In this document: positions 8,680-44,968 of the stretch, in pieces
Numbering within the stretch: position 1 is the first letter of the stretch
How the letters are laid out: the number at the start of each line of letters is the position of its first letter
Source of the DNA: Olleya sediminilitoris
Lineage (GTDB): Bacteria; Bacteroidota; Bacteroidia; Flavobacteriales; Flavobacteriaceae
NCBI RefSeq assembly: GCF_016785945.1
Contig: NZ_JAEMEF010000015.1
Coordinates: 1-64,000 of the forward strand
Direction: 5' to 3'
Length of the DNA: 64,000 bases
The notes under the pieces: generated by a model
What the model was told of the DNA's origin: nothing
The model's database searches: none
What the model saw: only the letters and a program-made list of their open reading frames with translations
Made by a program: the position numbers and the translations under genes

Positions 8680-9272
8680 ACCAACCAAGCACTTATATCA
8701 GGAAATCCAGCTGCAACTATAGGGAGTAATCACCAATGTCCGATGTGCAGTGGCACTACACCTCATGTAGGAGGTCCCATATTAAATGGATCTCCAAATG
8801 TTATTATCAATGGAAAACTCGCAGCCCGAATGGGAGATATGTCTGCCTGTTCAGGATTGACAGAACATTTCATGCCATCGAACACATAGATGAAGCTTTA
8901 CATAAAATTGATGCAATGCTTGTAAACGCTGATATTATTGAAAATATAGCTGCTTTATTCGAAAGTAAAACTGCTGCTGAAAAGGATGCCACTGCAGTAA
9001 AAAGAGGTATAAAATCAGCAATTTCAAAAAGTCGAATTCAAACTGCAAGAGTTAAAGCAATACAAGAAAAATGGGACAAAAAATTTGCAAAACCGACCAG
9101 TTGTATAAAACAAACCTACAACTACACCATTAAAAATGGTGATCAATTAGAAATAATTGCAAAAAAAGCAAATACGACTATTTCAACAATAAAAAGATTA
9201 AATCCCATGATTACAGATGAAGAAACTATCTTTACGGGAACAATAATTAAATTACCTAACCCTATAAAATAA
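8680..9272 (+). pseudogene. decayed PAAR-LysM protein (effector-type)
   Basis: Two frames must be joined. Frame one (about 8680-8889) reads LISGNPAATIGSNHQCPMCS, then PHVGGPILNGSPNV and NGKLAARMGDMSACSG, a clear PAAR-repeat domain, but has no start codon (TAA at 8677-8679) and stops at 8887-8889. The other frame, open across 8736-9272, is out of register over the PAAR part and becomes meaningful from about IEHIDEALHKID on, ending in a LysM domain (YTIKNGDQLEIIAKKA, TISTIKRLNP, IFTGTIIKLP). So the gene lost its 5' end and took a frameshift near 8866-8889. PAAR proteins cap T6SS or related contractile spikes; LysM binds peptidoglycan. An ATG at 8736 would give a 178-residue protein whose first 45 residues are nonsense. 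Confidence 0.7.
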
Positions 9273-9274
9273 TT

Positions 9275-9958
9275 ATGAGAGTATTTTATTCTATTATTTT
9301 AAGCTGTTTTATTCTAACATCCTGTAAAGGACAAAAAGACAATATGAAAGCAAAAAACACTCCTGAAGTCACTCAAATGTTAGAATCATATAACAAACAA
9401 GAGCATCGTATTGCTATTAATGGATGTGAAATGACGTATAATGAAAAAGCTTTTACTTTAGGTATGACCGTTAAAGAACTTATTAAGGTCTTTGGAGAAT
9501 ATGATGAATTTACTAGAGGTTTTTTTATTTGGAAAGATGCAGGTTTTACAGCCTCTATTAATAGTGAAATGTTAGGTGAAAAATTAAATATAAATAAAGA
9601 AACAACATATCTATACATATACTTAAATACGAAAGTTAGCGAAAAATACAAACATAGTTTAGCTCATGAGTTAAATCATAAAAAAGATTATTTTTTGCTT
9701 GAAGGTATGCCTGTAATATACAATATGAAGATTAAAGATTTTATATCTAATTCTAAATTTAATTTGGGTGATTTCGGTGTATCTAATTCTGGTTATGAAT
9801 TAGACTACACTTGCAATGGAAAAAAAATTGGTTATCGCTTAAAAGCTGATAATTTATGGCTAAGTAAAGGGACTGGTCATTTAAAATTAAAAGACAAACC
9901 TAATCCTGAAAACAATACACCTTTCGAATTGATATATATCACAGAAATCAGTGAATAA
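9275..9958 (+). CDS. lipoprotein, immunity-like, copy 1
   Basis: 227 residues. Lipoprotein signal with the box ILTSC at residues 13-17. The conserved body, shared with the next gene, includes NGCEMTYNEKAFTLGM, a Trp/Asp-containing middle, HELNHKKDYFLLEGMPV, and a C-terminal KDKPNPEN...IYITEISE. I do not recognise the family securely (DUF7738-like is possible). It starts 2 bases after the PAAR-LysM relic, a position usual for immunity proteins of T6SS effectors; a periplasmic lipoprotein would suit a peptidoglycan-targeting effector. That role is inferred from position only. Confidence 0.7.
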   Translation: MRVFYSIILSCFILTSCKGQKDNMKAKNTPEVTQMLESYNKQEHRIAINGCEMTYNEKAFTLGMTVKELIKVFGEYDEFTRGFFIWKDAGFTASINSEMLGEKLNINKETTYLYIYLNTKVSEKYKHSLAHELNHKKDYFLLEGMPVIYNMKIKDFISNSKFNLGDFGVSNSGYELDYTCNGKKIGYRLKADNLWLSKGTGHLKLKDKPNPENNTPFELIYITEISE

Positions 9959-9995
9959 TATCATATCAACAATTACCCAAATTATTGAAATAATT

Positions 9996-10667
9996 ATGAG
10001 AGTCTTTTATTTTATTATTATAAGTTTTTTTATTCAAACATCCTGTAAAGAACAGAAAGACAATATAAAAATAAAAAACACACCTCAAGTCTCTCAAATG
10101 TTAGAATCATATAACAAACAAAAACATCGTCTAGCTTTTAATGGATGTGAAATGACATATAATGAAAAGCCTTTTTCATTAGGCATGTCACTTAAAGATC
10201 TTAATAATGTATTTGGTGAATACGAAACTACTGATTTAGGTGCTATAATATTTAAAGATATCGGGATTGTTTTTGCTGGAAATGACAAAAATGTAAAACC
10301 TTCTTCAACCATAAACATTATATACTTATATATGAATACTGAAGTCAGTAAAGGCTACGAAGAAAGTTTAAGACATAAACTAAACCATATAAACAACTAT
10401 TTTCTAATAGAGGGCATGCCTTTAGATAAGAATATGTTTGTTATGGATTTTATAGCTAATTCTGAATTTAAACTCAATGACTTTGCAATTTCTAATCAAG
10501 GTTATGAAATTGAATATAACTGTAACAATAAAAAAATGGGATATTTTTTAGATGCAGATGGCACATGGCTTCGAAAAGGATCTGGTCATTTAACATTTAA
10601 AGACAAACCTAATCCTGAAAATAAGAATCCTTTTGAGATGATATATATCACAGAAATTAGTGAATAG
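9996..10667 (+). CDS. lipoprotein, immunity-like, copy 2
   Basis: 223 residues from the ATG at 9996; the frame is open 15 codons further up, overlapping the previous gene, but the first copy starts at the exactly corresponding ATGAGAGT, so 9996 is chosen. It is a tandem duplicate of copy 1: same lipobox (IQTSC), NGCEMTYNEKPFSLGM, FLIEGMPL, GYEIEYNC and an almost identical end, with the middle (about residues 70-100) strongly diverged. The stop of copy 1 and start of copy 2 are 37 bases apart, so the two are likely co-transcribed. Divergence limited to the middle suggests different binding specificity. Confidence 0.7.
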   Translation: MRVFYFIIISFFIQTSCKEQKDNIKIKNTPQVSQMLESYNKQKHRLAFNGCEMTYNEKPFSLGMSLKDLNNVFGEYETTDLGAIIFKDIGIVFAGNDKNVKPSSTINIIYLYMNTEVSKGYEESLRHKLNHINNYFLIEGMPLDKNMFVMDFIANSEFKLNDFAISNQGYEIEYNCNNKKMGYFLDADGTWLRKGSGHLTFKDKPNPENKNPFEMIYITEISE

Positions 10668-10922: not shown

Positions 10923-12074
10923 TTAAACGGATTGTGGCATTATGTCATCCTCATTAAATTCTACAATTTTCTTTCTCATCATTTGATTATTTGTAAAATG
11001 TCTAGAAATATCCATTGTCTTATTTACAAATTCATTTTTATTATAATAATGGATTTTTATGGACTTGCAATTTTCATGTTCAAAAATTTCATTTAACATT
11101 ACTCGATCTGATAAACCACAAGAATGTCCATAAATTACAACTTGATAATCTTCTGAATTTAAAAACCTTAACAAGTCTCTATACCTTCCATTTTCCGCAT
11201 ACTTAAAAGACTTAATTCCTTTAAAAAATTCATTATCATTTAATTCTTCTATTTTTTTATATTCTTCATTCATTTCATCTCCATACCCAAAAACTAAAGA
11301 CTCTTCTTCTAAACTATTGTGGATATGGTTTACGATAATATTTTTAGAGCTCCTTAAGTTTTTGATTTTAGATGCGTTTATAACATTGTCTACTGTTTTA
11401 GTATAATTAAAATTCAAGAAAAATATAACATCAGTTTTTATATTTTGCCCTTTCCTTAATTTATCAATTATATCAGTTTCTCTTATATTTGAAGTTAATT
11501 GATTAATATATTTTTTTGATAATTCAAAGTCAAGCGATTTAGTATAGTCTAACTGGTTTAGATATTGATGAAGTAGTTTTTCTAATTGATTCAACTCTTT
11601 GTTTAATATTTTAATGTTTGTTTTCCCTTTTAAACAATCTTTCAATAATTCAAAATATGCATTTTCAATATCAACCCAACTATCTATTGAATCTTTAAAA
11701 ATTTTTTCTAATAATTTTGATTTAAATTCGTAATTAAATTTGTGAGGACCACTTAAAATGTAATCTTTAATTTTTTGATAACTATCCATGTCATGAGTAA
11801 ATGAAAGTATGTTTTTATCTTCAAACGAATAATTCCTTTTATTGTAAAAAGTAAATAATTCATCATCATTAAAACTAAACAACAAGTCTCCTTTTTTATT
11901 TCTCAAATTACCTCTTTTCTTTAAACTCTTAATTATAAAACTCTTAAAATACCAGAGTAAAAAATCTTCATATCGTGTTTTTAAACCCAATGACAAATCA
12001 AAGCCATTACCAACTAATACTAATTTATTAACGACTTTCTTTTTAGGTTGAAACTCTAATTTTGATTCTCTCAT
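10923..12074 (-). CDS. AbiH-family abortive infection protein
   Basis: 383 residues. The N terminus has the AbiH signature KLVLVGNGFDLSLGLKTRYEDFL, followed in order by FLNFNYTKTVDNV, IVNHIHNS, LVFGYGDEMNEEYKKIEE, and YQVVIYGHSCGLSDRVMLNEIF near the end. These are the conserved blocks of AbiH (PF14253), phage-defence proteins first found on a lactococcal plasmid, thought to act alone in abortive infection; the mechanism is not settled. The gene has no partner: upstream and downstream are short noncoding stretches. Its neighbourhood (decayed effector, duplicated lipoprotein) marks an accessory island. Confidence 0.85.
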   Translation of the reverse strand: MRESKLEFQPKKKVVNKLVLVGNGFDLSLGLKTRYEDFLLWYFKSFIIKSLKKRGNLRNKKGDLLFSFNDDELFTFYNKRNYSFEDKNILSFTHDMDSYQKIKDYILSGPHKFNYEFKSKLLEKIFKDSIDSWVDIENAYFELLKDCLKGKTNIKILNKELNQLEKLLHQYLNQLDYTKSLDFELSKKYINQLTSNIRETDIIDKLRKGQNIKTDVIFFLNFNYTKTVDNVINASKIKNLRSSKNIIVNHIHNSLEEESLVFGYGDEMNEEYKKIEELNDNEFFKGIKSFKYAENGRYRDLLRFLNSEDYQVVIYGHSCGLSDRVMLNEIFEHENCKSIKIHYYNKNEFVNKTMDISRHFTNNQMMRKKIVEFNEDDIMPQSV

Positions 12075-13547: not shown

Positions 13548-16538
13548 ATGATTAAAAAATGGGCAATATTAAGCCTACTACTGTGTGGTTATTTTTCTTT
13601 TGCACAGGAGTATGTACCTAAAAATGATGGTGTTAAAACTAACACTTCTAATTACACTGCATTTACAAATGCTAAAATTTATGTTACTGCAAATCAAGTT
13701 ATTGAAAACGGAACGTTATTAATAAAAGACGGTAAAGTTGTCTCTAGCGGAAACAATGTTACTATCCCTAAAAACACTGTTGTTGTTGATATTTCTGGTA
13801 AAACTATCTACCCTTCTTTTATTGATATTTATTCTGATTTTGGTGTTAAAAAACCAAGCAGTACTCCTGGTAACAGAAGAAACCCTCAGTATGATGCTGG
13901 TCGTGAAGGTTATTATTGGAATGACCACATTAGACCTGACCAAAACGCTGTAGATCATTTTAAGTTTGACAGCAAAAAAGCAGAGGCTTTACGTAAAGCT
14001 GGTTTTGGTGTTGTAACCTCACATATTGATGATGGTATTATCCAAGGGACTGGAGTTTTAGTTACTCTTGCTGCTAATGGTAATGATGCTACAAGACTAC
14101 TTGACCAAAAAGTGGGACAGTTTTCTAGTACTTCAAAAAGTAGAACCTCAAGACAAGCTTACCCAACGTCTTTAATGGGTACTATGGCTTTATTACGTCA
14201 AGTCAATCATGATGCCGATTGGTATGCTAAAGGTAATATTAAAGAAAAAGATAGAGCTTTAGAGGCTTATATAGCTAACAAAAATCTGGTTCAGTTTTTT
14301 GATGCTGGAAAAAAAGTCAACGCATTACGTTTTGACAAATTAGGCGACCAATTTGGTATACAATATGTATTTGTTGGTGGTGGAGATGAGTATGAACTTA
14401 TTAAAGACATCAAAAATACAAATGCAAAATTTGTACTTCCTATAAATTTTCCGGTTGCTTATGATATGGAAGATCCATTATTAGCACAATCTGTTAGTTT
14501 GGAAGATTTAAAAGCATGGAACCAAAGTCCTGCTAATCCTAAAATTTTAGCAGAAAACAATATCACATTTGCTTTAACAACTCATAAGTTAAAAGACGCA
14601 AAACAATTAATGCCTAATCTATTAAAAGCTATAAAATATGGTTTAGATAAAACTACTGCATTACAAGCATTAACTTCTGTTCCTGCAAGTATAATAGGAA
14701 AATCTAAAGAATTAGGACATCTTAAATCTGGTGCTTATGCTAACTTTTTAATTACCTCAGGAGATATTTTTGATAAAGAAACTACTATTTATGAAAACTG
14801 GATTACAGGTATTAAAGACCAACTAACAGACATGAATACCACAGATTTACGTGGTAATTATACTTTTAATTTAGACAATACAGACTACCAATTAGAAATT
14901 ACTGGTGATATTGAAAAACTTAAATCTAAGGTTAAAACCGAAACTAAAGCGTACGACGGAAAAATTAGTTTTGATAAAAACTGGATGCAACTAACATTTG
15001 CAACACAGGACACAACAAAAAAAGAGTTTTTTAGAGTTGTAAGTCACGTTACTAATACCAACACTTTAAATGGTAAAGTCTATTATCCAAACGGAAACGA
15101 AACAACCTTTTTTGCTACCAAACAAAACAAAGAAGATAAAAAAGGTAGTAAAAAAGATAAAAAGAATAAGAAAACAGACGCACCAAAAATATATCCTGTT
15201 ACCTACCCTAACATGGCTTATGGTACAGAAAACCTTCCTAAACAAGAAACGTTATTGTTTAAAAATGTAACGGTTTGGACCAATGAAAAGGATGGCATTA
15301 TAAAAAATACTGATGTTTTAATTAAAAACGGAAAAATTGCTAAAATAGGTATAAATCTAAGTGCTAGTAATGCAACTGTTATTGACGGAACAGGTAAACA
15401 CTTAACAGCTGGAATTATTGATGAGCATTCGCATATTGCTACAGAAAGTGTAAACGAAGCTGGACACAACAGTACTGCAGAGGTTACTATTGAAGATGTT
15501 ATTGATGCAGAAGATGTAGACATTTACCGTAACCTTGCTGGAGGTGTAACAAGTATTCAGATTTTACATGGATCTGCTAATCCAATTGGTGGACGCTCAG
15601 CAATTATTAAATTAAAATGGGGAGAAAAAGCCGATAACTTAGTGTACACAAACAGTCCTAAATTTATAAAATTTGCTTTAGGAGAAAATGTAAAACAATC
15701 AAATTGGGGAGACAATGCTAAAACACGTTTTCCGCAAACCAGAATGGGTGTAGAACAAGTTTTTACAGACTACTTCCAGCGTGCAAAAGAATATGACGCA
15801 CTTAAAAAAAGCGGTAAACCTTACCGTAAAGATTTAGAACTTGAAACTATTGCAGAGATTTTAAACAAAGAACGTTTTATTTCTTGTCACTCTTACGTAC
15901 AAAGCGAAATTAATATGTTAATGAAGGTGTGTGAAGCATTTGGATTTAACGTCAACACCTTTACACATATTTTAGAAGGTTATAAAGTCGCAGACAAAAT
16001 GGTACAACATGGTGCTGGAGGCTCTACATTTTCTGACTGGTGGGCTTACAAATATGAAGTTAATGATGCTATCCCTTTTAATGCACCAATCATGCATAAT
16101 GCAGGTGTTTTAGTAGCCATTAATAGTGATGATGCAGAGATGTCAAGACGTCTAAATCAAGAAGCTGCAAAATCTGTAAAATATGGTGACATTAGTGAAG
16201 AAGATGCTTGGAAGTTTGTCACATTAAATCCTGCAAAACTATTACATATTGACAATCGTGTTGGTAGTATTAAAGTTGGTAAAGATGCAGATGTAGTGTT
16301 GTGGACCGATAACCCTTTATCTATTTACGCTAAAGCGGAAAAAACAATCATTGAAGGTGCTGTTTATTTTGATTTAAAACGTGATGCAGAACTTAGAGAG
16401 GCTATCAAAAAAGAGAAAAACGAATTAACAATGTTAATGCTTGATGCTAAAAACAAAGGTTTAAAAACAAAACCAATTGAAAAGAAGGAGAAAGAATTAC
16501 TGCATTGTGACTCTATTGATCACCAACACATCCATTAG
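13548..16538 (+). CDS. exported double amidohydrolase-superfamily protein
   Basis: 996 residues with a signal peptide (1-19, cut near FSFAQ). Two amidohydrolase-like halves are joined by a Lys/Asp-rich linker (about 523-545). The N half (30-440) keeps the outer beta-sandwich (IYVTANQVIENGTLLIKDGK) but has IDIYSDFG where the metal-binding HxH should be. The C half (570-975) has IDEHSHIATE (H627, H629), FISCHSYVQ, FTHILEGYKV and INSDDAEMSRRLNQEAAK, consistent with an active metal-dependent hydrolase of the imidazolonepropionase-like group. The true substrate is unknown; periplasmic. The next gene is a relative and probably in the same transcript. Confidence 0.85.
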   Translation: MIKKWAILSLLLCGYFSFAQEYVPKNDGVKTNTSNYTAFTNAKIYVTANQVIENGTLLIKDGKVVSSGNNVTIPKNTVVVDISGKTIYPSFIDIYSDFGVKKPSSTPGNRRNPQYDAGREGYYWNDHIRPDQNAVDHFKFDSKKAEALRKAGFGVVTSHIDDGIIQGTGVLVTLAANGNDATRLLDQKVGQFSSTSKSRTSRQAYPTSLMGTMALLRQVNHDADWYAKGNIKEKDRALEAYIANKNLVQFFDAGKKVNALRFDKLGDQFGIQYVFVGGGDEYELIKDIKNTNAKFVLPINFPVAYDMEDPLLAQSVSLEDLKAWNQSPANPKILAENNITFALTTHKLKDAKQLMPNLLKAIKYGLDKTTALQALTSVPASIIGKSKELGHLKSGAYANFLITSGDIFDKETTIYENWITGIKDQLTDMNTTDLRGNYTFNLDNTDYQLEITGDIEKLKSKVKTETKAYDGKISFDKNWMQLTFATQDTTKKEFFRVVSHVTNTNTLNGKVYYPNGNETTFFATKQNKEDKKGSKKDKKNKKTDAPKIYPVTYPNMAYGTENLPKQETLLFKNVTVWTNEKDGIIKNTDVLIKNGKIAKIGINLSASNATVIDGTGKHLTAGIIDEHSHIATESVNEAGHNSTAEVTIEDVIDAEDVDIYRNLAGGVTSIQILHGSANPIGGRSAIIKLKWGEKADNLVYTNSPKFIKFALGENVKQSNWGDNAKTRFPQTRMGVEQVFTDYFQRAKEYDALKKSGKPYRKDLELETIAEILNKERFISCHSYVQSEINMLMKVCEAFGFNVNTFTHILEGYKVADKMVQHGAGGSTFSDWWAYKYEVNDAIPFNAPIMHNAGVLVAINSDDAEMSRRLNQEAAKSVKYGDISEEDAWKFVTLNPAKLLHIDNRVGSIKVGKDADVVLWTDNPLSIYAKAEKTIIEGAVYFDLKRDAELREAIKKEKNELTMLMLDAKNKGLKTKPIEKKEKELLHCDSIDHQHIH

Positions 16539-16599
16539 TAAACAGAAAAACACACTCATAAATTTTCGCTTTAAGCGGAAATAAAAACGATAATAAATC

Positions 16600-17895
16600 A
16601 TGAGAAAACTTAATATATTAATCCTTGCGTTGTTGATTTCGGTAATTAGTTTTGCCCAGCAAACACCAGGAGACAAACAATCTCAAGCCATTACAATTGA
16701 AGGTGCAACAGCACACATAGGTAATGGTCAAGTTATTGAAAATTCATTAATAATATTTGAAAACGGAAAACTAACCTTTGTTGGAAGTGCCAATACAAAA
16801 ATTGCAAGAAAAGGTAATGTGATCACTGCATCAGGTAAACATGTATATCCTGGTTTTATTGCACCAAACTCGACATTAGGTTTGGTAGAAGTCGATGCTG
16901 TTAGAGCAAGTGATGACGAGGACGAAGTTGGTGCAATGAATCCACACATACGAAGCTTAATTGCTTATAATACAGAGTCAAAAATAGTTGAATCTATGAG
17001 ACCAAACGGAGTCTTGATGGCACAAATTACTCCTAGAGGTGGACGCATTTCTGGTACGTCAAGTGTTGTACAACTAGATGCTTGGAACTGGGAAGATGCT
17101 GTTATTAAAGAAGACGATGCAATACATTTAAATTGGCCAAGAAATTACTCTAGAGGTCGTTGGTGGTTAGGAGAACCTAATGTTTTAAAAGAAAACAAAA
17201 ACTACTCAAAAGAAGTTGAAGAACTATCCAATTACTTTGCACAAAGTAAAGCATACAATGCCAACAAAACCAGTCCTAAAGACTTACCTTTTGAAGCTTT
17301 ACATGGTTTAATTGATGGTAGTAAAAAACTATTTGTACATGTAGATTATGAAAAAGGAATTACAGACGCTGTTAATTTTGCTAAAACGCAAAACGTAAAA
17401 TACCTTGTAATAGTTGGTGGATATGAAGCTAATAATGTTAGTGATTTATTAAAACAACACAATGTGCCTGTATTATTACAACGTGTACACTCTAGACCTA
17501 ATGGAGATGATCATGATTATGATTTACCTTATAAACTAGCAACACAATTAGTAAATAGTGGTGTTTTAGTTGGTCTAGAAAACGCTGGAGACATGGAACG
17601 TATGAATACTAGAAACTTACCATTTTTAGCTGGTACAACTGTTGCACATGGTTTAACCAAAGCGCAAGCATTAAGTTTAATTACATTAAATACTGCCAAA
17701 ATTTTAGGTGTTGATGATAGTGTTGGATCATTAGAAGTTGGTAAAGATGCAACCCTTTTTATAAGTGAAGGTGATGCTTTAGATATGAGAACCAACAAAC
17801 TTGACAAAGCGTTTATACAAGGTCGTGATGTAAGTTTAGAAACGCATCAAACAGAATTATACAAACGTTACTCTAACAAGTACAAGAAGCAATAA
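16600..17895 (+). CDS. exported amidohydrolase-like protein, probably lacking the metal site
   Basis: 431 residues, signal peptide ending near SFAQQ. The beta-sandwich start (ITIEGATAHIGNGQVIENSL, YPGFIAPNSTLGLVEVDAVR) and end (HGLTKAQALSLITLNTAKIL, GSLEVGKDATLFI) match the imidazolonepropionase-like amidohydrolases. At the place of HxH it has APNSTLG, and no obvious set of metal-binding His replaces it. It resembles the N-terminal half of the 996-residue neighbour more than the C-terminal half. It lies 61 bases after that gene, so the two products probably work together as a heteromeric periplasmic hydrolase; inferred. Confidence 0.82.
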   Translation: MRKLNILILALLISVISFAQQTPGDKQSQAITIEGATAHIGNGQVIENSLIIFENGKLTFVGSANTKIARKGNVITASGKHVYPGFIAPNSTLGLVEVDAVRASDDEDEVGAMNPHIRSLIAYNTESKIVESMRPNGVLMAQITPRGGRISGTSSVVQLDAWNWEDAVIKEDDAIHLNWPRNYSRGRWWLGEPNVLKENKNYSKEVEELSNYFAQSKAYNANKTSPKDLPFEALHGLIDGSKKLFVHVDYEKGITDAVNFAKTQNVKYLVIVGGYEANNVSDLLKQHNVPVLLQRVHSRPNGDDHDYDLPYKLATQLVNSGVLVGLENAGDMERMNTRNLPFLAGTTVAHGLTKAQALSLITLNTAKILGVDDSVGSLEVGKDATLFISEGDALDMRTNKLDKAFIQGRDVSLETHQTELYKRYSNKYKKQ

Positions 17896-17940
17896 AATAG
17901 CTATTTCAATTGTATTAATTGACATAACTAATTCATAGTT

Positions 17941-17976
17941 AAAAAAAAAGGCGACCCATTGGGTCGCCTTTTTTTT
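17941..17976. terminator. bidirectional intrinsic terminator
   Basis: Nine A, GGCGACCC, loop ATT, GGGTCGCC, eight T. It lies between the convergent amidohydrolase and lipoprotein genes. Confidence 0.92.
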
Positions 17977-17992
17977 ATTACTTGTAGTAAAA

Positions 17993-18796
17993 CTACTCTA
18001 CGACTTCAGCAGTTTCTGGTTTTGCAAATGTGCTTACAGGAAGTGCTGTTTTAAATAATTTAACATCAGTAAAAGGTAAATCGTTACGCTTTTTAACAGG
18101 TAAATTATCTTCAACTACATACCATGTTAATGTATCTGGTATAACTACACCTTCAATGGTTTGCCATTTTCCGTATTTAATAAACGACCATTTTTCACTT
18201 TTAGCTTTTGTATTAAAAGTAACAGTATAAGCTAACCATTCCATTTTAAATGTTTCAGGATTGTAGTAAACAATGTACTCATCGTCAGAAGACGATCCAA
18301 TACCATTATCATAACTAATTCTAATTCCTGGATACGTAACACCTTCAAATACTAATGGTTTAGCTTCTCCATAATTAATTCCGTTATCAGCTAAAACAAA
18401 AGGCATTGCATTAAAGTAAAACATTAAATTGTAGTAAAACTTAGGATTACCTTTGTACGCTTCTTCATTTTTACTGTTTAGCCAAACATTGTTACCATCA
18501 AAACCTAAAGTATGATTTGGCATAGTAATTACAGATTGTCTTGTTTTTAGGTTAACAGTTGTTACTTCTTTACCTGTTGGTTTTGTAATTGTAAATTCTA
18601 AAGCCTGTAATGCATTCCAGTTATCAATACCTCCATGAGCATCAAATACTTTAGTAATATTTTCTGGATAAGTTTTAGTCGCTACTGTTTTAGTAACCTC
18701 TTTTGGCATTAGTGAGTCTTTAGGTGTTGATTGTGTCTCATTTTTACATGATACAACAAGCAATGCAATACATAATGTGTAAAGTAAGTGTTTCAT
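17993..18796 (-). CDS. lipoprotein, DUF6503-like, copy 1
   Basis: 267 residues with a lipoprotein signal ending VVSC17. After a Thr/Lys-rich tether the domain begins KVFDAHGGIDNWNALQALEFTI and contains FDGNNVWLNS, YYNLMFYFNAMPFVLAD, GVTYPGIRISYDNGIGSSSD and EWLAYTVTF. It probably sits on the periplasmic side of a membrane and folds as a LolA/LolB-like or similar beta-structure; I associate it with flavobacterial DUF6503. It is followed downstream by the 17941 terminator. The next gene on the same strand (18906-19724) is a clear paralog, separated by its own terminator. Function unknown. Confidence 0.78.
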   Translation of the reverse strand: MKHLLYTLCIALLVVSCKNETQSTPKDSLMPKEVTKTVATKTYPENITKVFDAHGGIDNWNALQALEFTITKPTGKEVTTVNLKTRQSVITMPNHTLGFDGNNVWLNSKNEEAYKGNPKFYYNLMFYFNAMPFVLADNGINYGEAKPLVFEGVTYPGIRISYDNGIGSSSDDEYIVYYNPETFKMEWLAYTVTFNTKAKSEKWSFIKYGKWQTIEGVVIPDTLTWYVVEDNLPVKKRNDLPFTDVKLFKTALPVSTFAKPETAEVVE

Positions 18797-18852
18797 TTAA
18801 TTTATTGTTTTTATAATTCTGATTATAGTCGAAATTACCTCAGATACTTTAC

Positions 18853-18884
18853 AAAAAAAGCTTCAGTATTTAACTGAAGCTTTT
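18853..18884 (-). terminator. intrinsic terminator between paralogous lipoprotein genes
   Basis: Read on the minus strand: AGCTTCAGT, loop of five, ACTGAAGCT followed by seven T (complement of 18853-18859). It ends the 18906-19724 transcript ahead of copy 1. Confidence 0.82.
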
Positions 18885-18905
18885 AAGTATATTAATTATT
18901 GATTT

Positions 18906-19724
18906 TTAATCAACAAATTTTGCTTTTTCTGGTTTAACAAACATAGCTGCATCAGGAGCTGTTTTTGATAATTTTACATCAGTAAAAACGTTAGGCTTTT
19001 TTGGAGTTGTAGGTTGGTCGTTTTTAAAACCATAACCTGTAATTGTATTTGGTAAAAGTAAACCGTTTACTTCTTGCCAATCTCCATAACGTCTAAAGTG
19101 TAACTCTTTAGTATCAATTCCTGGTACAAAATTAACTGTATAACCTAACCATTCCATTGTATAAGTTTCAGCGTTATAATATAATATATAAATATCTTCA
19201 GGTGTTGCTCCTACACCACTATCATAAGAAATTTTAATTCCTGGATAAGTTACACCTTTAAAAGTTAATGCTTCAGCTTCAGAAAATGTAATTCCGTCGT
19301 CAGACAAAATAAAAGGCATTGCATAAAAATAGAACATTAAATTATATCCAAATTTAGGATCGTAACCTTTATATTCTTCATCTGTTTTATTTAATAACCA
19401 AGGTTTATCTCCATCAAAACCAATTGCGTGTTTTGGAGAGTCTAATAACGCTTTTCTGTTGTATAAATCTGTTGTAGTAACTAATTTACCATCTGGTTTT
19501 TCTTCAGTATACTCTAAAGTTCTCATAGACTTCCATACATCCAATCCTCCATGTGCATCAAAAATCTTAACCAAGTTTTCTGGATATTTTTTAGTCTCTT
19601 TAACTACTTTTTTAGTTTCTGATTTAGTCATTTCTTCAGCAACTGTAGTTGTTTCTTTTTTTGTTTCTGTTTTACAAGAAAACAATAATAACCCTAATGA
19701 TAAGGTGTAAAATAAATGTTTCAT
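18906..19724 (-). CDS. lipoprotein, DUF6503-like, copy 2
   Basis: 272 residues, lipobox LLFSC17 at the same distance from the start as in copy 1. Shared blocks: KIFDAHGGLDVWKSMRTLEYT, IGFDGDKPWLLN, GYNLMFYFYAMPFILSD, GVTYPGIKISYDSGVGA, EWLGYTVNF and the GDWQEVNGLLLPNTITGY segment matching copy 1. It is an old tandem duplication, since similarity spans the whole length with many substitutions. A terminator after the gene suggests separate expression from copy 1. Function unknown. Confidence 0.78.
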   Translation of the reverse strand: MKHLFYTLSLGLLLFSCKTETKKETTTVAEEMTKSETKKVVKETKKYPENLVKIFDAHGGLDVWKSMRTLEYTEEKPDGKLVTTTDLYNRKALLDSPKHAIGFDGDKPWLLNKTDEEYKGYDPKFGYNLMFYFYAMPFILSDDGITFSEAEALTFKGVTYPGIKISYDSGVGATPEDIYILYYNAETYTMEWLGYTVNFVPGIDTKELHFRRYGDWQEVNGLLLPNTITGYGFKNDQPTTPKKPNVFTDVKLSKTAPDAAMFVKPEKAKFVD

Positions 19725-41530: not shown

Positions 41531-44500
41531 TTACATGTTTCTGCGATACTGACCACCAACTTCAAACAACGCTGAAGTAATTTCACCTAAACTACACACT
41601 TTACAGACATCCATTAGGGCTTCAAAAATATTCTCGTTATTAATGGCTTTGTGCTGTAAATCTTTAAGCATCGCTTTAGTATCATTTGCTTTATGCAAAT
41701 TCTCTAAAGTTTTTATCTGGAATTGCTTCTCTTCTTCTGTTGCTCTAATGACTTCCGCAGGAATTACTGTTGGCGAACCTTTAGAACTTAAAAACGTATT
41801 TACTCCAACAATTGGGAATTTTCCGTTATGTTTTAACGTTTCATAATATAAACTCTCTTCTTGAATTTTACTACGTTGGTACATGGTTTCCATAGCTCCT
41901 AAAACACCACCACGTTCTGTAATTCTGTCAAATTCTTGTAAAACTGCTTCTTCAACTAAATCGGTTAATTCTTCAATAATAAAAGAACCTTGAATTGGAT
42001 TTTCGTTTTTATTCAGTCCTAATTCTTTATTTATAATTAATTGAATAGCCATTGCACGTCTAACCGATTCTTCAGTTGGTGTTGTAATAGCTTCGTCGTA
42101 CGCATTGGTGTGTAATGAGTTACAATTATCGTAAATAGCATACAAAGCTTGTAGCGTTGTACGTATATCATTAAAGTCAATTTCTTGAGCGTGTAAACTA
42201 CGTCCAGACGTTTGAATATGGTATTTAAGCATTTGTGCTCTTGCATTTGCACCATACTTGTGCTTCATTGCTTTTGCCCAAATTTTTCTGGCAACGCGAC
42301 CAATTACTGCATATTCTGGATCAATTCCGTTTGAGAAAAAGAACGATAAGTTTGGTCCAAATTTATTGATGTCCATACCACGACTTAAATAATATTCCAC
42401 GTAAGTGAAACCATTAGATAACGTCAATGCTAATTGTGTAATTGGGTTGGCTCCTGCTTCTGCAATGTGATATCCAGAGATAGAAACCGAATAGAAATTA
42501 CGCACATTATTCTCAATAAAATACTCTTGTACATCTCCCATTAATCGTAATGCGAATTCAGTAGAGAAAATACATGTGTTTTGTGCTTGATCTTCTTTTA
42601 AAATATCTGCTTGAACGGTTCCTCTTACTTGTGCAATGGTATTCTTTTTAATCTCTGCATACACATCTGCTGGTAGTACTTGATCACCAGTAACACCTAA
42701 AAGCATCAATCCTAAACCGTTGTTTCCTTCAGGTAAATCGCCATTATAAGTAGGACGTTCTTTATCTTTATAAAGCTTCGCTATTTTTGCTTCAACTTCT
42801 TTTTCAAGACTATTTTCTTTAATGTAAAATTCACATTGTTGATCTATGGCAGCATTCATAAAGAAACCTAACAACATTGGTGCTGGTCCATTAATAGTCA
42901 TACTTACCGACGTCATTACATTGGCTAAATCGAAACCAGAATATAATTTTTTAGCATCGTCTAAACAGCAAATTGAAACTCCTGCATTACCAATTTTACC
43001 GTAGATATCTGGACGTAAATCTGGATCGTTTCCGTATAATGTTACACTATCAAAAGCAGTCGATAAACGTTTTGCTGGTAAACCTGCACTTACGTAGTGA
43101 AAACGTCTATTAGTACGCTCTGGTCCACCTTCTCCTGCAAACATACGTGCTGGATCTTCACCTGTACGTTTAAATGGATATAATCCTGAAGTATATGGGA
43201 ATTCTCCTGGTACATTTTCTTGCAACGTCCAACGTAATAAATCTCCCCAAGCTTGGTATTTTGGTAAAGCTACACGCGGAATTTGTAAGTGAGATAATGA
43301 CTCAGAATGTGTTTCAATTTTAATCTCTTTATCTCTTACTTTAAACGTATAAATTGGATTTTTATATTTGTTTACCTTTTCATCCCAACCAGTAATAACT
43401 TCCCAATTGTATGGATCCAAGTTTAATTTAACACGGTCAAATTCTGCAATAAGTAACTTTATAAAGTCTTTATTGTCATCCTGAACTTGCTTCAGGATCT
43501 CATCTTGATCCAGTCCTTGCTTACCAATAAGAGACATTTCGACTGCGCTCGATGTGACATCCATTACTGAACAAATAGTTTTATAAATTCCGTAAAGTTT
43601 TTGAGCAACTTCAACCTGAGTGTTAGCAGTTTTATCATAAGCACGATTATTTTCCGCAATTTCAGATAAATAACGTGTTCTACTTGGAGGTATTACAAAA
43701 ATCTTCTCGCTCATTTCATCAGAAATATGGAAGGTAGATTTTAAGTCTGAATCTGCTTTTTCAACCAACTTATCCATGATGGCTTTGTATAGCGTATTCA
43801 TTCCTGGATCGTTAAATTGCGACGCAATGGTACCGTAAACAGGTAATTCTTCTTGAGGTGTATCCCAAAGATTATTGTTACGCATGTATTGTTTTTTTAC
43901 ATCACGTAAAGCATCTAAAGATCCTCGTTTATCAAACTTATTAATGGCTACTAGATCTGCAAAATCTAGCATATCAATTTTTTCTAATTGTGTTGCAGCA
44001 CCAAATTCTGGTGTCATAACATAAAGAGAAACATCAGAATGCTCAATAATTTCGGTATCCGATTGTCCAATTCCTGAAGTTTCTAGGATGATTAAATCGT
44101 ATTCGGCAGCTTTTAAAACCTCAACCGCTTCATTAACATATTTAGATAATGCTAAGTTAGATTGACGCGTCGCCAAACTACGCATATATACTCTTGGAGA
44201 ATTGATAGCATTCATACGAATACGATCTCCTAAAAGTGCACCTCCTGTTTTACGTTTAGAAGGATCTACAGACACTAAACCAATGGTTTTTTCTGGAAAA
44301 TCTATTAAAAAACGACGAACTAATTCGTCAACCAAACTAGATTTTCCTGCGCCTCCAGTTCCTGTAATTCCTAAGACTGGTGTTTTTGAAGCTTTATTTT
44401 TATTGTGAATTTTATCTAAAGTGTCTTTTGCAACTTCTGGGAAATTTTCGGCAGAAGAAATCACTCTAGCAATTGCTTTTGGATTTTTGGTTGGTAAAAT

Positions 44501-44968
44501 ATCTAATTCGCCATTTAAAGCATCTCCAATAGCAAAATCAGACTGTTCTACCAAATCATTAATCATACCTTGTAATCCCATTGCACGACCATCGTCTGGA
44601 GAATAGATTCTAGCAATACCATAATCCATAAGTTCTTTAATTTCGGAAGGAAGGATTACTCCTCCTCCACCTCCAAAAATCTTTATATGCTCTGCACCTC
44701 TTTCTTTTAAAAGATCGTACATATATTTAAAATACTCGTTATGACCACCTTGATATGAAGTCAAACAAATTGCATTTGCATCTTCTTGAATAGCTGTATT
44801 TACAACCTCATCTACACTTCTATCATGTCCTAAATGGATCACCTCTACTCCTGTAGATTGAATGATACGACGCATGATATTTATCGAGGCATCGTGACCA
44901 TCAAATAATGCTGCTGCAGTTACAATTCTAACTTTATGTTTTGGCTTATATGGTGTTGCTTGTGTCAT
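41531..44968 (-). CDS. icmF: fused B12-dependent acyl-CoA mutase IcmF
   Basis: 1145 residues. N-terminal cobalamin-binding domain (DGHDASIN, lower ligand H25; [12 protein letters not shown]), then a MeaB/ArgK-like G-protein chaperone (GTGGAGKSS, about 203-211; NKFDKRGS), then the acyl-CoA mutase barrel ([71 protein letters not shown]). This order is that of IcmF, which isomerises isobutyryl-CoA and n-butyryl-CoA. Residues 471-498, between the GTPase and mutase parts, are encoded by an inserted palindromic repeat (43475-43558). Length exceeds the usual 1090-1120 by about that insert. Confidence 0.92.
43475..43558. repeat. 84-bp palindromic repeat element inserted in the icmF coding sequence
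   Basis: Ends GTCA...TGAC. It contains two hairpins: ATCCTGAA, loop of five, TTCAGGAT (perfect 8 bp) and CATTTCGA, CTGCGC, TCGATGTG. This text (GTCATCCTGAAC..., GACTGCGCTCGATGTGAC) is that of a dispersed intergenic repeat often met in flavobacterial genomes. Here it is exactly 28 codons long and in frame, adding residues 471-498 ([10 protein letters not shown] ... KQVQDD). Confidence 0.8.

Follow-up and report, generated by a model that had tools for sequence, protein, structure and literature searches.

The window analysed here is a 64-kb stretch (64,000 nucleotides) of the Olleya sediminilitoris genome, which comprises 3.42 Mb in 37 contigs. On its minus strand lies icmF (41531..44968), an ORF for a fused isobutyryl-CoA mutase of 1145 aa. 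Pfam matches (PF02310, PF03308, PF01642) place a B12-binding domain, a MeaB-type GTPase and the mutase in one chain, the arrangement that identifies IcmF. The homolog from Cupriavidus metallidurans (PDB 4xc6) is the same fused enzyme with the same domain order, but at the linker, the position of which is described in a passage of PMC10481361, it has ~34 residues where the window protein has ~62, both lengths depending on the edges of local alignments. Elsewhere in the window, an AbiH-type abortive infection gene (PF14253) on the minus strand at 10923-12074 adjoins two diverged direct duplications at 9250-10620, and 13548-19724 holds two neighbouring amidohydrolase genes (996 and 431 aa) followed by two similar tandem genes, one of which matches DUF6503.

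Two palindromic repeats around a native core

Between the GTPase and mutase domains, the 84 bases at 43475-43558 (minus strand) read GTCA...TGAC and encode residues 471-498 with no stop in the used frame. A check on the sequence upheld the initial annotation in this, and also in its statement that a palindromic repeat of a mostly intergenic type is here translated in frame in the GTPase-mutase linker. Its reading of the 84 bases as a single element had to be given up, as the stretch consists of two different repeats around a native core. On the minus strand, the 5′ repeat (43532..43558, 27 nt, residues 471-479) encodes VTSSAVEMS and has a TGTC tag, a bulged stem and a GCGCAG loop. The core that follows (43505..43531, residues 480-488) encodes LIGKQGLDQ; across 30 IcmFs, some carrying repeats and some lacking them, G485 is invariant and K483 is at least 90% conserved. 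The 3′ repeat (43475..43504, residues 489-498) belongs to another family and is inverted; its 26-nt part at 43475-43500 reads GTCATCCTGAACTTGCTTCAGGATCT on the plus strand. We refer to the two families as F1 (5′) and F5 (3′), and these names, like F2 and F4 below, were coined in this analysis. In folding, the 8-bp hairpin of the 3′ repeat is far better than its shuffles (z −3.4) while the 5′ hairpin is not (z −0.24); the middle 33 nt show no fold (z +1.4 vs. shuffles), and the whole 88 nt gave z −1.86 as DNA and −1.19 as RNA.

Identity with dispersed copies elsewhere is at the DNA level. Using exact patterns of 20 and 26 nt, respectively, F1 (GTCWNNNYGAGCGMAGYCGA) was found at 19 sites in the 3.42-Mb genome, and F5 (GTCATYCTGAAYTTGNTTCAGRATCT) at two sites in the same genome and, when 17 genomes were searched, at 33 sites spread over 10 of them; both own-genome counts include the window copy, and the reversed control for F1 and the control for F5 gave zero matches. 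The whole 84-mer is different. Among 26 blastn matches in the genome the only one of full length was the window itself, and the remaining 25 were fragments, mostly of the 5′ or 3′ end and a few of them chance-like. The expectation of further genomic copies therefore holds for each end and fails for the 84 bases as a unit. As to MITE-like features, the only terminal inverted repeats seen are the 4-nt GTCA/TGAC ends, and the comparisons gave no clean empty site at which a target-site duplication could be read.

In four genomes, almost all F1 copies form a stem of bases 5-10 and 17-24 with a 2-nt bulge, and their end tag is mostly TGTC (17/19, 31/34, 14/15 and 15/17 sites) rather than the CGTC of the GTAG/CGTC REP superfamily, which was seen at 1, 0, 1 and 1 sites. 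In the source genome, 13 of the 19 F1 sites sit in two regions of less than 10 kb each (G000:C1:283813-291392 and G000:C22:288086-293180), with several facing pairs. Looking for a Y1 transposase as the mobiliser gave no lead: Y1_Tnp (RAYT) matches numbered zero in the source genome, and F1 was present near only one of eight Y1_Tnp loci, ~900 bp distant. Y1_Tnp matches occurred in 4 of 10 genomes of the genus. With the Y1_Tnp search of the source genome empty, neither a mobilising enzyme nor the repeat-flanked Y1 transposase of REP-with-RAYT systems was found there.

Repeats inside other genes

Every site of a stricter F1 pattern was examined in four genomes (the source genome G000, and G001, G004 and G077), and a site was taken as intragenic when it lay in an ORF of 150 aa or more that continued for 40 aa or more to either side of it. 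F1 is a short dispersed palindrome of the REP kind, with 66 of the 83 sites outside ORFs; the other 17, about one fifth, lie inside ORFs at 11 gene positions. Another scan covered 129 sites, with overlaps, in a mixed sample, and the counts given here come from the four-genome set. The positions fall in genes of unrelated function, namely icmF, leuS (two positions), valS, metG, polA, pyrD, metH, a menE-like ligase, an hsdM-like methylase and a topoisomerase-like gene. These names come from profile searches, with several scores under the curated cut-offs because the ORFs are fragments, and the topoisomerase-like gene was named by eye. Thirteen of the 17 in-gene copies are read as V-x-x-S-A-V-E-x-S, three as S-x-R-A-Q-S-R and one antisense (8, 2 and 1 by position). 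By eye, the repeat stands at the same place in polA and pyrD of G001 and G077, and in metG of G053 and G077.

For LeuRS, 38 sequences were compared, namely the 30 best-scoring loci (own included) out of 53 family genomes with a match, and eight more of the genus. At site A we found F1 in six, an F5 pair in four, F2 in three, the related repeat F2b in one, and an empty or unassigned site in 24; at site B, F1 in six, F4 in one, F5 in one, and empty or unassigned in 30. The species of the genus differ at site B: three of them (L415, L417, L422) have it empty, the source genome and four others have F1 there, and G001 has F4. The states at site A require 10 changes on the LeuRS tree (shuffles: mean 13.3, minimum 11), and the six at site B are no fewer than shuffles can give (mean 7.7, minimum 6). 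The LeuRS of G005 (L418) has ~40 extra aa (NIDGCLDAKGNILKKYVNEDGS...) after its QHP motif that are absent from the sister sequences compared.

Distribution and genealogy of IcmF linkers

Linkers were extracted from 224 loci in all. In Flavobacteriaceae, 177 IcmF loci gave 172 rows after merging those with an identical protein core; at class level, where 101 genomes had a match, linkers were read at 29 loci and at 20 chosen for length or split matches, a non-random sample. F1 is present in 18 of the 172 family rows, F2 takes its place at the 5′ end in three (L066, L069, L076), and an F5-like motif ends the linker in 30. Neither repeat occurs in 137 rows by the motifs used. Full-length icmF was found in nine of ten genomes of the window's genus. 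Six of these genes carry F1 (L027-L031, L035) and the other three have a shorter linker, for example TPELDKAGIASES, and so the insert is not particular to one genome. Nor do the orthologs show a clean gap at residues 471-498, since repeat-free IcmFs of the family hold ~20 other residues there, for a net difference of ~8. Occurrence of the 28 residues in other genera, which the initial annotation named as counting against its reading, was observed in part: some orthologs of other genera (L145, L071) match the segment at 23 of 28 residues, because repeat-bearing linkers turn up repeatedly in the family and their genealogy differs from that of their flanks.

Several linkers hold other material. 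A further family, F4, translated as VIPTEGGMTDEES or the like, comes after the F1/F5 part in L035, L062 and L157, and occurs in a loop of a CusA-type pump (L304) that carries F1 too. Among other Bacteroidia, the linkers of L244, L251, L264 and L273 (RSQKPEVRSE, TPSGEGAGG, LASGSWPLAASGE and SDEWRVASAASD) look like other dispersed repeats. That of L269 (G187:C95:23106-26915, ~1402-1870) is ~145 aa longer and contains an in-frame DUF559 endonuclease-like domain (PF04480, E 3e-29) between palindromic-looking SPPLKGGG and HPLQGGE; no long paired flank was seen around this insert, and the flank repeats at one weak second place in its genome.

Carriers, which were picked by protein motif, use the same codon for identical residues at a rate of 0.718 within the F1 segment and 0.645 within the F5 segment vs. 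0.511 in the rest of the gene, and the F1 window ranks 14th of 1071. In an alignment of 17 carriers, from which L030 (with Ala in place of Ser) and L155 (a duplicate) were left out, covariation of stem pairs 6-23 and 8-21 scores 0.275 vs. 0.152 when shuffled, with none of 500 shuffles as high. The number of covarying pairs (2 vs. 2.0, 444/500 shuffles as high) and of pair types (6 vs. 6.8, 467/500) do not exceed shuffles, making two of the five measures used, and kinship of the rows can inflate the others. High codon agreement and covarying arms are as expected if subtypes of one DNA repeat occupy the same codons, though covariation by itself would be no proof of such subtypes at one place.

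On the icmF gene tree, the F1 state requires 14 changes (100 shuffles of the 172 rows: mean 17.4, minimum 15); there is therefore some inheritance, but little, and the state is very labile. The 3′ state requires 26 changes (shuffles: mean 28.2, minimum 23) and is no less scattered than shuffled labels; a part of the F5-like linker ends may thus be accidental. These counts, like those for LeuRS, refer to FastTree gene trees and not species trees, with many weak forks (62 of 168 inner branches below 80 for icmF). L030 and L033 have flanks that are 97.5% identical in DNA, and dense differences only from ~codon 449 to ~508 (~60 codons). These ends define the tract that we propose as the unit of exchange, which in the window is 43445..43624 on the minus strand (codons 449-508). 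The window's own tract (~452-508) is nearest that of L071, a Winogradskyella (0.842), while its flanks are nearest the repeat-free L137 (0.939). These mismatches between tract and flanks lead us to infer that the linker was replaced as a cassette through short-tract recombination, and linkers in Flavobacteriaceae seem to be exchanged as short cassettes in this way. No genome pair differing in the repeat alone was found, and thus no insertion was caught in the act.

Origin of the translated repeats and comparison with known systems

Our preferred reading, which we consider probable, is that two REP-like palindromes of different families, F1 and an inverted F5, stand in frame on either side of the native IcmF linker core and are translated as a spacer, a state reached by random entry, tolerance and linker exchange. 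Repeats would enter genes more or less at random and would survive only where a loop, assumed to be exposed, tolerates extra residues, and only in a stop-free, harmless frame, which for F1 is mostly V-x-x-S-A-V-E-x-S. Linkers carrying repeats would then be swapped among Flavobacteriaceae via short-tract recombination and later lost again.

It is very unlikely that one 84-bp inverted-repeat element arrived in a single insertion into icmF. The geometry is BIME-like, and one other inverted F1-F5 pair was seen in the loci scanned, of 78 nt and outside any long same-strand ORF in G077 (C1:1878140-1878217), so such pairs do exist. However, its spacer is unrelated to the icmF middle, which is native and conserved, and the two ends occur apart (the 3′ motif without the 5′ repeat in 14 of 172 IcmF rows, F1 without the 3′ motif in 4). 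With the native core inside it and no second copy in the source genome, the single element was rejected. We regard as highly improbable that mRNA or DNA hairpins are selected at the domain boundary, where they would slow translation or regulate the transcript. The covarying stem arms, the high codon identity and the stable 3′ hairpin would fit, as would the finding that in the 3′ repeat the synonymous choice of Ile codon is associated with whether Asp or another residue stands seven codons later (Fisher p 0.0009; 35 rows, some chance-like or related). Yet different repeat subtypes at one place would give the same covariation and codon signals, the 5′ hairpin is weak, and most IcmF rows (137/172 by the motifs used) have neither repeat. 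If the hairpin were the thing kept, pairing should persist in icmF; yet 6 of the 11 icmF copies with an exact core retain the four outer pairs vs. 61 of 65 copies outside genes (p 0.002). Because the arms are more broken in icmF, a tolerated spacer peptide is favoured and hairpin selection was rejected as the main driver; the repeat is probably tolerated and otherwise of little function. In-gene copies overall are not clearly more decayed in the four genomes (12/14 intact vs. 61/65, p 0.29), and arm decay is therefore no rule for all genes. This count used 79 of the 83 sites (65 outside and 14 inside genes), omitting the in-gene loci L172, L173, L305 and one more, and two of its 14 in-gene copies are icmF copies also among the 11. 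That an ordinary linker merely resembles a repeat by chance or protein convergence is hardly credible. The linker is variable, some weak 3′ motif matches may be accidental, and the 3′ state scatters like shuffled labels, but the exact 20- and 26-nt patterns have no control matches, carriers are conserved at the codon level, and chance is already contradicted for the window's own copy.

Exchange itself could be dispensed with if each lineage acquired its repeats by independent insertion, the same loops accepting new repeats repeatedly. This would agree with F2 standing in F1's place in three icmF genes and with the alternation in LeuRS, where site A holds F1, an F5 pair or F2, and site B holds F1 in the source genome and G004 and F4 in G001. 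We think it rather unlikely, as the core KQGLDQ and many codons are common to carriers of different genera (L027, L028, L030, L031, L071, L145) and synonymous sites near the icmF linker change together with it, both of which point to exchange. A broader proposal is that Flavobacteriaceae hold a pool of palindromic repeats serving as exchangeable peptide cassettes in housekeeping proteins. A resident repeat would mark the site and other families would replace it in place by repeat-into-repeat replacement or conversion. Within one genus, loops such as the IcmF linker and LeuRS sites A and B would thereby change their peptide, with the remainder of the protein left as it was. We put this forward as a doubtful but possible extension.

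The preferred reading, of tolerated and exchanged spacers, would make these loci a natural experiment, run repeatedly, on the conversion of selfish DNA into protein, as the same loop is empty or differently filled in sister species. The cost of each peptide could be measured in an otherwise similar enzyme, and the repeats are a pointer to insertion-tolerant sites in essential proteins. About one fifth of ‘extragenic’ F1 palindromes are in fact intragenic (17/83 sites, four genomes).

A BIME is a repeated unit of two inverted REPs, which face each other with their GTCA ends outward. The icmF pair is likewise inverted with GTCA ends outward, but its members come from different families and its spacer is native coding sequence. 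Sections of the RepRanger paper state that REPs seldom overlap coding regions, and a table there names Flavobacterium genomes (PMC12306157). In-frame translated palindromes are nonetheless a known kind, since both Rickettsia palindromic elements (RPE) and intragenic GTAG/CGTC REPs have been described. In the accounts drawn on here, RPE stand in frame in many Rickettsia genes and are translated (PMC10969869), and they are ~150 bp long, CGTC-tagged in some families and found in an obligate intracellular genus (PMC10969869, PMC3733652). The parallel with RPE drawn in the initial annotation is apt, as palindromic repeats are translated in frame in genes of unrelated function in both cases. Compared by description, the repeats here differ in being 26-27 nt long, TGTC-tagged and of Flavobacteriaceae, with several families alternating at one protein place. 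For intragenic GTAG/CGTC REPs, passages of Di Nocera et al. 2013 (PMC3733652) report coding of 20-30 aa and count tRNA synthetases and DNA polymerase I among the proteins affected. They also report CGTC repeats in Bacteroidetes, said to be without a dedicated transposase, and an intragenic REP at the same site, roughly, only for recB of two Xanthomonas. Our searches of open-licence papers turned up no report of repeats read in frame in Flavobacteriaceae, nor a description of what our data suggest, namely that in a bacterial family of this kind repeats of several families take turns at a single position of a protein and linkers are exchanged. Going by those passages, F1 resembles the intragenic GTAG/CGTC REPs in having tRNA synthetases and DNA polymerase I among its hosts, and differs from them in its TGTC tag and in the switching of families at the same loop.
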